Part shown: positions 17,992-55,374 of the stretch, in pieces
Layout: every line of letters starts with the position of its first letter
Position numbering within the stretch: position 1 is the stretch's first letter
Source: Umbilicaria muhlenbergii
Lineage: Eukaryota > Ascomycota > Lecanoromycetes > Umbilicariales > Umbilicariaceae
Assembly (NCBI GenBank): GCA_000611775.1
Contig: KK106983.1
Location: 1,512,654 to 1,576,653 of the forward strand
Direction of reading: 5' to 3'
DNA: 64,000 nucleotides
The notes under the pieces: model-generated
What the model was told of the DNA's origin: nothing
Databases searched by the model: none
Seen by the model: only the letters and a program-made list of their open reading frames with translations
Program-made: the position numbers and the translations under genes

Positions 17992-18251
17992 TGTTGTAGG
18001 AAAAGGGTGTTTCTTCTTGGACAAGCGGACAAACGTTGAAGTTGCTGCTATTTTTTCCGTAGTGTCTGTGCAGGTGATTCCATCCACCTTTAAGAAGCAC
18101 AGAAGCACAGAGGGAGGGAATTAGGATCATGAAAATGCAAAATATGATTATCTTCAACAGAAGACAACTGGTAGAAAAGAGAGTTCCAAATGGGCACAAA
18201 AGGAAAGCAAAAGAATGACCAAGTTGAGGATCGAACTCAAGACCTTATCCG

Positions 18252-18265
18252 CAGCAATGAAACGT
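18252..18265 (-). other. canonical tRNA intron in tRNA-Val
   Basis: Fourteen nt lie directly after position 37, one base 3' of the AAC anticodon. This is the standard place for a nuclear tRNA intron cut by the Sen endonuclease. Without it the loop is seven bases, TTAACAC. Confidence 0.75.
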
Positions 18266-18287
18266 TGTTAAGGATACGTGATAACCA

Positions 18288-18342
18288 CTGAGAGTCGATT
18301 TAGTAATTGTATGTAGCTTTGAGACATCAGGATAAATCTTAC
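18288..18342 (-). other. GT-AG intron-like insert in the tRNA-Val D-loop
   Basis: The 55-nt insert starts GTAAGA, has a branch-like ATTACTAAATCG about 11-13 nt from its end, and finishes CTCTCAG. This is the anatomy of this genome's pre-mRNA introns. Precise removal gives the D-loop AGTTGGTTA, standard for tRNA-Val. A 56-nt removal shifted by one base would give AGTGGTTA, also acceptable. Confidence 0.7.
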
Positions 18343-18358
18343 ACTACACCACTCGGCC

Positions 18359-18756
18359 CTTGCTTGTGCGATGGAGAGTGAAAGTCCTTATGCATTTATA
18401 TCAAGTAGAAAAGGGTTCGCAGCAACTTCTTCCATCAACAAGCAGCTTGGCCGTGCCTTCTCAGGCGGGTACCCCTAAAACAACACCTCGAACTGTTGTT
18501 ACATTGTTGACAACCCCCCGCCCCCCAAGACATTGAACACTCAGTTAGAGGCCTACTCAAATCCCTAACTAAACACAACATTCATAACGCAAGCGCTTGA
18601 GTGCTCACTACAACCACCGCTAATGCTGAATTCTGAGACAACTTGGCAGTAACCGACTACTGAAGCTGCCTGTATAGGGGATTAGGTCTAGGGCCGACGG
18701 CATTGAGCGGTTAGGTGATTAGGGTTAGATGGACGTATGTAGTGGGTGTCATTATA
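18359..18756. other. intergenic between tRNA-Val and a MITE
   Basis: I see no gene here. The stretch is A/T- and C-rich in blocks, with short inverted pieces around 18480-18535, but none convincing enough to call an element. Confidence 0.4.
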
Positions 18757-19241: not shown

Positions 19242-19370
19242 GGTCGATTAGCTCAGTTGGTTAGAGCGTGGTAAGTTGATAGGCCATTTACATTCATAAC
19301 AACATCACATTGACACGATCTCAAGGTGCTAATAACGCCAAGGTCGAGGGTTCGACCCCCTCATTGACCA
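19242..19370 (+). tRNA. tRNA-Ile (AAT) interrupted in the anticodon stem
   Basis: Joining 19242-19270 to 19326-19370 gives a 74-nt cloverleaf with every stem paired: acceptor GGTCGAT/ATTGACC, D-stem GCTC/GAGC, anticodon stem TGGTG/CGCCA with loop CTAATAA (anticodon AAT), T-stem GAGGG/CCCTC with TTCGACC, and discriminator A. The A box and B box are both good, and a TTTT follows near 19377. There is no intron at the usual 37/38 site. Instead a 55-nt insert splits the 5' strand of the anticodon stem after position 28. Unless it is removed, this gene cannot make a folded tRNA. Confidence 0.82.
19271..19325 (+). other. GT-AG intron-like insert in the tRNA-Ile anticodon stem
   Basis: The 55-nt insert begins GTAAGT, a perfect fungal 5' splice site, contains CATTGACAC as a possible branch region 13-17 nt before the end, and finishes CTCAAG. 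Because the flanks share GTG/GT, the cut could be shifted by one or two bases with the same product, but only one placement gives GT...AG ends. Confidence 0.7.
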
Positions 19371-20754
19371 TATTATTTTACTTTTGGCCTCTTTAGTTCT
19401 TTTTGTCGATGCGGGGTGCTGCTATAGGAGTAAATCAATATAACTTCTACTATACACCGTTATCTCCTAAAGATGGCAGCTCTTTCATATGCAAGGTCGG
19501 CATAATTTGCCCGTTGGCGAGTAAAGACAGTGGCTTAGTGAAAGGTGAATATTATCATACCTGCTTCGACAATAACATACCTAATGAAAGCATGCTGAAA
19601 AATGAAGTGAAAAGAGAACTCTTCTTATGAGTGACATTTCAAGCCAAACTATTTAATAATAGCAGCGTGCATTACATAATACTGACTTTCTAGCTTTCAA
19701 TTGATTCACAGAACAATTTGACCTCCTTTCCCAACTTCATGTACCGGCTCGTCAAGTGTCCTGCTCCTTTGTTCATCCTTCCCTCAAGCCAATTGACCTG
19801 CTCATGTCCTCCTACTTTCCAGCCAGAGGCGCATTCTCCTTCGACCCACGATGACAAACAGCGAACTCGAAGCGAAAACGACAAAGCTCCTCCGTCTTCT
19901 TAAGGCGTGTCGAGGGAAAGAACACTGCCTTTGGACCCAACAGATACATCTGGATGCAGAGGTAGCAGCTCTGTTTGCCTATCAAGCCAAAATTACTCTT
20001 CGTGATGAGGAACTCTGTCATTTGGAGAAATTCTAAATCATTTCGTACGTCGCCGCAAGATGGAAATTTCTTGCAATCTTACCTTTACCCCTAATAGCTG
20101 TCGCCGGAGAAGGCGCCAAACATCAAACCCTGTCGGACAAGACCCGACGCCTGAACGCACGCATTTCGTCGGAGGCAACCACATCAGGAGTTAGCAAGGA
20201 ATGTTTGGAAAAACAGAACAGAATCATGAAGTCATTTCCATCCTCCATAGACAATTCCTTTATGACATGAGGGTCGGCATCTTAACATTACCCTGGATCT
20301 CCGAGATGCGCTGTCTGGGATGCGAAAGAGTGGTGACTTTCAAGGGCGGCGACTATCACAGATCCCCGCATGAGAAAAGAGGGTTGAACCAGCGTCGATG
20401 ACGTAGTTAGCCCCCATGGAGCTCGCCGCGACAAGGCAGAATAGCAGCCTCGACAGGAATTCGGCGTCCGAGCCTTCCACCATCGATGCATGCCTTGACA
20501 GACGATGGTCCTCAACAATCCGTACAACGTCATTCGTTATACACAGATAATAATTTCCCTCTCTGTATTGTGCCGGAATCTATCCTTACGGATGCAGTTC
20601 TAATTAACAAGGTTCATTTTACATCGACACTGAGTGTATACGCATCCAGCTGTATCAACGCATGCCCTCCGTAACAGCGCTAACTACACCGTCCGTGCCA
20701 AGGGCGCCAGCTGTGGGACTCCCGCTGAAGGGGCAAAACCAATTTACACCCAGC
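19371..20754. other. intergenic between tRNA-Ile and YTA7
   Basis: No confident gene is seen. One ATG frame at 19851-20036 (61 codons, Lys/Leu/Glu-rich, helical) could be a small protein but shows no family signature. The rest is AT-rich with short, unrelated frames. Confidence 0.4.
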
Positions 20755-44581: not shown

Positions 44582-46028
44582 ATGCTCGTTCCCCGTCCCC
44601 AAACAGCGGCCAGGCTATCACAGCGATGGCGTAATAGTCTATGCAGGCAATGCAAAAGATCGTTTACATCAGCCTTCAACATTATAGCAGGTATATAAGT
44701 ACATGAGAAGAACTGATAGAGCATATCTGCTGACCCAATCAGAGGGCGATCACGTACTTTTACAAGCCAAAAACAGCACCAAAGCCCCAGTGTTCACGAA
44801 GCGACTTCGACACGGTAGAAAAACAGAGTCTTGGTGGGGGAGTGTGGATCACACGAGCATCATAGGCAAGCGTGCCCGAGACGTCGTAGAGACTAGCAGA
44901 GGCCGAGAGATTCGAGTCAACCTCCCGACTCTTGAAGAATATGTTACCTTGACTCCTCGTATAGTCACTCCTGTAGGTTGGTGGTTTCACCTCCATGTAC
45001 TTCTGTGGCTGACGAAGACCCAGTAGATCTATCCAGCAGATGCTAATCTGATCGTATCTTTACTCGACATTCATGTCACCCCCACCGATCCTATGACAGA
45101 GGGTGATGCACCACTGGAAATTCTAGAGGCTGGTACGGGGCATGGGGCATTGAGTCTGCATTTGGCGAGAGCCATTCATGCCGCCAATCCCAGGCCTTCG
45201 TTCGATGCCAAGCGACACAATCTGATTACGGACGGAGATGCGCCATCGTCCAGTGGTGTCGATGTCTGTACCTCCAGCTTGACGCCTGATGTTCAAGCAT
45301 CCAGTTCCGACCTTGACGAATACAAGTCCCAGCGTAAAGCTGTAATTCATACCTTGGACATCTCGTCGCGCCACTCGGATCACGCCATGAAAGTCGTGGC
45401 CGGCTTCCGGCAGGGCCTTTACGCTGGTGACGTTGACTTTCACGTCGGTGATCTTTCCGAATGGATCCAAAAGCAGTTCACTGCTCGAGCTGAGTCCCAA
45501 GCAGACACAGAGGCCAAAGCGTTCTTGTCCCATATAATCCTTGACCTGCCGTCTTCCCACCGTTACATCACGCAGGCAGCATCAGCCCTGCATGTCGATG
45601 GCTGTCTCATAGTTTTTAACCCTAGTATCACGCAGATCACAAAGTGCGTTGAGAAGATACAGAAGGAGAGGCTCCCGCTTATCCTTGATCGAGTCCTTGA
45701 ACTGGGAGCTGCCATGACAGGCGGAAGGCGATGGGATGTCCGTTCCGTGAGACCAAGGGTGTTGGCCCAATCAGAGGCAGAGAAAGAGAAGGATCTCGCT
45801 ATTGCAAGCACCCTGGAAACTGATCGTTCTGAAGAGACAATTGCAGGAGGCGGAAATCTACCGGTGAACGTCGGTACTGATGGCATGGGCAGGGACGAAG
45901 AGCAGGCACAAACGCTTGACGAGCAGGAAACAGGGTGGGAAATGATTTGCAGACCTAAGGTCGGCCAGATGGTGACAGGGGGCGGCTTCTTGGGTGTATG
46001 GAAGAAGATGAGAGATCGCACAGCCTAA
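44582..46028 (+). CDS. mitochondrial tRNA (adenine-N1)-methyltransferase, Trm61/TRMT61B-like
   Basis: This is a SAM-dependent methyltransferase of the TrmI/Trm61 group, which methylates N1 of adenine 58 in tRNA. Exons are 44582-44690, 44743-44972 and 45027-46028, giving 446 residues. The first exon encodes an Arg/Ser/Gln presequence (MLVPRPQTAARLSQRW...) that predicts mitochondrial import. The next block, EGDHVLLQAKNS...KRLRHGRKTESWWGSVDH, is the family's N-terminal beta domain. IYPADANLIVSLLDIH and the SAM loop ILEAGTGHGALSLHLARAIH follow. The C-terminal 100 residues are acidic and variable. Nuclear Trm61 lacks such a presequence, so I favour the mitochondrial paralogue. The 3' end converges with the lipase 73 bp away. 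Confidence 0.86.
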
Positions 46029-54976: not shown

Positions 54977-55374
54977 TTGTTCGGACGAGCCAGACGGCGC
55001 TGGTCAGTCTCCTTGGGGCACGGTAACGGTTGGGATGAGTCAGGTATTAGGCTCGAACCGGCTCCAAGTGGCTCGTTCGCGGCGAGCGTGTGGGTACCGA
55101 GTCCGAGGTGGAAGGGGAAGTGTTCTGGCTGATCTGGCTGCTGGTCGCTTGGCCGCCGAGTGCATCGGACCAATGGGCGGCGATGGAAGAAGGCTAGAAG
55201 TGGTAGAAGGAAAACCCGAGTGGATCTCATTCCACTCGGACGTTTTTGAGTTGCAAGGGTTCGACATCCTTGCGCCCACCCGCTCCAATGCCCAACTCAG
55301 CTCTGGCGGAGCAGAAGAAGCTTCTTTGTGACTGCCTTACGGCCTGCTCCAAGGCGGCCAAACAATCCTGTCCA

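Follow-up and report, generated by a model that had tools for sequence, protein, structure and literature searches.

Putative mRNA-type introns at ectopic sites in two neighbouring tRNA genes of Umbilicaria muhlenbergii

The window analysed here, a stretch of 64,000 nucleotides from the genome of Umbilicaria muhlenbergii, encodes proteins of a fungal nuclear chromosome, including SMC1, a CDC20-type WD40 protein, an M18 aminopeptidase, RPN7 and a GCD14-type tRNA methyltransferase subunit. The head region of SMC1 scores 296 bits over 199 residues against 6qpw, from Chaetomium thermophilum, and 133 against 1w1w, from S. cerevisiae, a difference that hints at a filamentous ascomycete. The open reading frame matching the GCD14 family (45027-46028, + strand) lies about 26 kb from the tRNA genes described below. 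A strong skew of G over C (0.279) is found between 28001 and 32000, where pieces of a WSC-domain-like protein are encoded. A PHO13/phosphoglycolate-phosphatase-like gene occupies 17991-16660 on the minus strand; at 119 and 144 nt, the introns nearest its start are long. One alignment to solved phosphatases spans all four intron junctions of this gene, whose introns start with GTAAGT, GTGTGT, GTATCT and GTACGG.

Two tRNA genes, one for valine and one for isoleucine, are recognised in the window, and both carry an insert of 55 nt that resembles an mRNA intron, at different sites (Table 1). The two genes point away from each other, their 5′ ends being separated by 883 bases. The Val gene lies on the same strand as the phosphatase-like gene, which begins about 225 nt downstream of it.

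Table 1. Features of the two interrupted tRNA genes, in coordinates of the window
Feature	Position	Strand	Basis or remark
tRNA-Val(AAC) gene, doubly interrupted	18216..18358	-	ARAGORN Val(aac) once the 55-nt insert is removed
Val 5′ exon, positions 1-16	18343..18358	-	sequence
Val 55-nt GT-AG insert, D-loop, between positions 16 and 17	18288..18342	-	
Val insert, best branch-point match ACTAAA	18304-18299, branch A 18300	-	
Val ordinary tRNA intron, 14 nt, 37/38	18252..18265	-	ARAGORN
Val anticodon AAC	18267..18269	-	ARAGORN
TTTT, Pol III terminator-like, Val	18209..18212	-	
TATAAA, at -42 of the Val gene	18395..18400	-	
tRNA-Ile(AAU) gene, interrupted	19242..19370	+	Rfam tRNA 45.7 bits; Ile(aat) by ARAGORN after excision
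Ile 5′ exon, positions 1-28	19242..19270	+	sequence, ARAGORN
Ile 55-nt GT-AG insert, 5′ strand of the anticodon stem, 28/29	19271..19325	+	upstream of the anticodon
Ile insert, best branch-point match ATTGAC	19309-19314, branch A 19313	+	
Ile 3′ exon	19326..19370	+	anticodon AAT 19331-19333
TTTT, Pol III terminator-like, Ile	19376..19379	+	

In the unexcised window, the Ile gene is the sole tRNA visible to Rfam and ARAGORN, and it was absent from the preliminary description of this DNA. From the raw sequence ARAGORN names it Leu(CAA) and places a 46-nt intron at 32/33; removal of the 55 nt gives Ile(AAU) with all 21 of 21 stem pairs formed. The unexcised Val gene has no Rfam match up to E 5 and is not called by ARAGORN with introns allowed. 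Once its 55-nt insert is excised, ARAGORN calls Val(aac) and finds the ordinary 14-nt intron (18265-18252) at the canonical site, as first described. The Val cloverleaf had also been described as fully paired; the identity stands, but 20 of the 21 stem pairs are formed, the exception being a U.U at 13-22. A U.U at these positions is usual for eukaryotic Val tRNAs. The conserved T8, A14, G18G19, T33 (U33), TTC and A58 are all present in the excised Val body. Minimum-energy folding does not predict the mature Val form as a cloverleaf and brings Ile near to one, with a different T-arm pairing; these folds were counted neither for nor against any reading. Both genes contain a B box; the A-box pattern applied here is found in Ile and not in Val. 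This bears out the earlier statement that in the Val gene the Pol III A box is disrupted by the insert, whereas the B box, the TTTT and the TATAAA at -42 remain.

Left in place, the inserts split the D-loop in Val and the anticodon stem in Ile, and the 5′ exons that precede them are very short (16 nt in Val and 29 nt in Ile, plus leader). The anatomy given earlier for the Val insert, which runs from 18342 to 18288 (55 nt) with GTAAGA at its start, ATTACTAAATCG inside and CTCTCAG at its end, agrees with ours in every coordinate. The Ile insert has the donor GTAAGT, where Val has GTAAGA. Both inserts start with GT and end with AG at ends that restore the host RNA, both are 55 nt long, and in both the best branch-point A lies 12 nt from the end; the branch-point matches themselves, ACTAAA in Val and ATTGAC in Ile, are imperfect against the consensus ACTAAC. 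Only a single placement of the insert yields the Val product, and it is GT..AG. The Ile product is obtained from four equivalent placements (27/28 to 30/31), one of which is GT..AG.

How readily such excisions arise by chance was gauged by scanning the whole window. Excision of segments of the form GTRNG...AG, 45-90 nt long, made a junction-spanning tRNA in 2 of 2,668 cases, which are Val and Ile, and in none of 26,082 cases in ten dinucleotide shuffles. When any GT...AG of 30-150 nt was allowed, 58,229 excisions gave six hits at three places (two at Val, two at Ile and two near 55201-55290), and 20 shuffles gave none in 1,152,276. The tRNA-like structure at 55201-55290 on the + strand, which has 90 bases, an 8-base anticodon loop, a long variable arm, one unpaired acceptor position and an unclear identity, was judged spurious. 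Around 355 TTC[AG]A sites, single deletions with lengths of 8-130 nt, 3,994,653 in all, produced tRNA calls at three T-loops only, those of Ile, Val and 55260. At these loops ARAGORN tolerates 108 single deletions for Val and 2,203 for Ile, many of the Ile ones under other names, and GT...AG excisions of 57 nt at Val and of 51 nt at Ile pass as well. The shape of a tRNA by itself thus leaves the ends of the insert unfixed; the strong donors, GTAAGA and GTAAGT, belong to the 55-nt versions.

The inserts were compared with mRNA introns predicted by a small gene finder; of its 46 predictions, 38 (45-150 nt, GT donor) were used, seven of more than 150 nt and one with a GC donor being dropped. This set is mostly predicted and its scores are consensus-seeded; four of its introns are supported by homology and at least two members are shown to be wrong. 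These two are gene-finder introns in the phosphatase gene, 18034-17944 and 17097-16988, which were among the 38 and are missing from the homology-supported model. The Val insert scores 11.37 and the Ile insert 10.73, against a median of 10.94 for the predicted mRNA introns when each is left out in turn; on the same footing Val equals or exceeds 20 and Ile 17 of the 38. The earlier claim that the Val insert resembles the mRNA introns of this genome fits its score, which is in the middle of the range of these 38 mostly predicted introns of the window, and the same is true of the Ile score. The window contains 5,393 GT-AG segments with lengths of 50-60 nt; 46 of them match or beat the Val score and 85 that of Ile. 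Arbitrary segments of 55 nt reach these scores far more rarely (4 of 127,890 for Val and 7 for Ile, the inserts themselves counted).

From this anatomy, we consider both inserts to be probable U2-type spliceosomal introns, lodged in nuclear tRNA genes of the Pol III type in a filamentous ascomycete. The preliminary description had left three options for the Val gene, namely processing by the spliceosome, processing by a relaxed tRNA endonuclease, or a gene killed by an insertion. The first is now favoured because a second tRNA gene, found through Rfam, bears a similar insert at a different ectopic site; the other two keep a lower weight. As it was found in this way and not through intron features, the Ile gene is an independent test of the original idea. 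It counts against the spliceosome that the two genes, being neighbours, may not be independent of each other.

The canonical position of nuclear tRNA introns, and of cleavage by TSEN, is 37/38; the 14-nt Val intron belongs to this class, whereas the two 55-nt inserts sit elsewhere (16/17 and 28/29). A permissive tRNA endonuclease of the kind found in red algae and nucleomorphs might nevertheless remove them, their GT-AG appearance being incidental. Ectopic and multiple tRNA introns, D-loop sites included, are reported for C. merolae and the G. theta nucleomorph (PMC4090602), and many G. theta introns are without a defined bulge-helix-bulge (PMC3978253). The likeness extends to inserts in both the D-loop and the anticodon stem and to more than one intron per gene (PMC4090602, PMC3978253). 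These introns differ in being filed under endonuclease processing, the nucleomorph ones quoted measure 3-24 nt, and the available parts of the two papers do not describe a GT-branch point-AG anatomy. Endonuclease introns do not require GTAAG, a branch point or AG, yet both inserts have all three. The 4-bp central helix is absent at the right place in both inserts, for every equivalent placement, although this argument is weak, as the 14-nt Val intron fails it too. Taken with these points, removal by such an endonuclease appears distinctly improbable.

Self-splicing deserves still less credit. Miniature group I introns of a comparable size class are known in fungi, with lengths of 56-81 nt in the rRNA of Phialophora (PMC3160393), and it is barely conceivable that the two inserts are of this type: Rfam group I models gave zero matches up to E 5, and no Ile placement combines a U ending the 5′ exon with a G ending the insert. 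The +2 placement, with U at the end of the exon and U at the end of the insert, starts with AA.

A more serious objection is that both genes may be dead copies, pseudogenes into which intron-like or other DNA was recently inserted, while uninterrupted copies elsewhere serve the cell. Short direct repeats surround both inserts, GGT in Ile and AGTG in Val (18345-18342 and 18289-18286), in both cases as expected after insertion with target duplication. Excision of the GT-AG segment from Val gives AGTTGG; deleting 56 nt from one AGTG to the next would give a shorter D-loop, AGTGG, and this alternative, which has no GT-AG placement, counts against the spliceosome. The broken A box of Val also fits a dead gene. 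So does the view of a review that short insertions in the D or T arm of eukaryotic tRNA genes are supposed marks of pseudogenes (PMC4090602, section 5), which again weighs against splicing of the inserts. The paper on tRNAscan-SE 2.0 states a maximum of one intron per eukaryotic tRNA gene (PMC8450103); algae and nucleomorphs break both rules (PMC4090602, PMC3978253).

The state of the tRNA bodies bears on the age of any such death. Bodies given two random changes stayed as intact as the present ones in 1,140 of 5,000 trials for Val and in 991 for Ile, which means that a recent death would be invisible; with eight changes this happened in just 34 trials for Val and 8 for Ile, again of 5,000. 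The intact bodies thus exclude a long decay, but not a recent loss. Dead copies would further require that two neighbouring genes were hit by inserts which can both be excised as GT-AG introns with good donors. Nor do the inserts look like recent copies of one element. Their inner identity is 11/39, against a shuffle mean of 11.2, so that no clear kinship was found by this measure, and a check for introner-like elements found no second copy of either insert in the 64-kb window. With gaps allowed, the two align with a score of 22, to which the shared ends contribute; of 76 comparisons with predicted mRNA introns, only 5 attain this value. As far as their sequences tell, the two inserts are not recent copies of one sequence, and they may be weakly related. 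If they are old, or arose separately, the intact tRNA bodies point to use. Weighing both sides, we regard dead copies as unlikely.

Exact joined Ile exons had no match in viral and none in prokaryotic contigs, Ile exons with a gap of 35-65 nt had none in either, and the joined Val pattern and a looser Ile pattern had none in viral contigs; being viral or prokaryotic, these collections say little about relatives.

The neighbouring phosphatase-like gene suggests another origin for the Val insert: a Pol II transcript of that gene (start codon 17991) might run through an old tRNA, and the insert would then be an intron of its 5′ UTR. In favour of this, the Val gene shares the strand of the phosphatase gene and precedes its ATG by about 225 nt. 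Such an intron would leave unexplained both the exact restoration of a tRNA upon excision and the whole of the Ile gene, and we find it very improbable.

Ectopic spliceosomal introns are already known in U6 and in rRNA; what would be new here is tRNA as the host gene class. Those in ascomycete rRNA are reportedly the subject of Cubero 2000 and Bhattacharya 2000, which are named here through the citations of others. In lichen-forming and other ascomycetes, rRNA genes carry short mRNA-type introns and thus resemble the present case in having them in a non-coding RNA (PMC8527467; such introns are also reported in PMC11889510), and lichen rRNA introns of this type are removed from a Pol I transcript when placed in yeast (PMC8527467). 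They differ in that their host transcript is Pol I rRNA, whereas here it would be a Pol III tRNA. A closer parallel in this respect is the U6 snRNA gene, which in fission yeast (S. pombe) has an mRNA-type intron and in S. pombe and other species combines, as here, a spliceosomal intron with a short, structured Pol III RNA (PMC10484740). U6 is thought to have been hit by reverse splicing near the catalytic site inside the spliceosome (PMC10484740); tRNAs, in contrast, are no part of the spliceosome. Phrase searches in a library of open-access papers gave no report of spliceosomal introns in tRNA.

If both inserts are spliceosomal introns, a simple order of maturation can be proposed. Pol III would transcribe each gene, aided in Val, where the A box is interrupted, by the TATA box and the B box. 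The spliceosome would then take out the 55-nt intron, using GTAAG(A/T), the terminal AG and a branch A that precedes the 3′ end by 12 nt. The D-loop of Val and the anticodon stem of Ile could take shape only after this removal, and the body would then fold. In Val, the tRNA splicing endonuclease and ligase would next remove the 14-nt intron at 37/38; the spliceosome is placed first and the endonuclease second because the tRNA body is the supposed reference from which the endonuclease measures (PMC4090602, section 5). We infer the transcription of both genes, the use of the spliceosome, the order of the steps and the function of the products from the anatomy and excisability of the inserts, their scores and the intact bodies.

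By the usual division of labour, the spliceosome acts on mRNA, and an endonuclease and a ligase act on tRNA. Maturation of tRNAs by the spliceosome would cross the border between mRNA and tRNA splicing. A single tRNA precursor would pass through two splicing machines in turn, and the gain of introns by a gene class supposedly closed to them would become datable in sister species. As Rfam and ARAGORN miss the Val gene in its present form and ARAGORN takes the Ile gene for Leu, the tRNA sets of such genomes would be wrong; the naming of Ile(AAU) as Leu(CAA) from raw sequence is an error that an annotation pipeline could carry. Further interrupted tRNA genes can be sought with a simple excision scan. 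More tentatively, and with somewhat less than even confidence, we suggest that spliceosomal introns may have entered tRNA genes repeatedly in this fungal lineage, that many such genes may be unseen or misnamed, and that the spliceosome may be a regular machine of tRNA maturation acting before the endonuclease, which would couple the supply of some tRNAs to splicing capacity.
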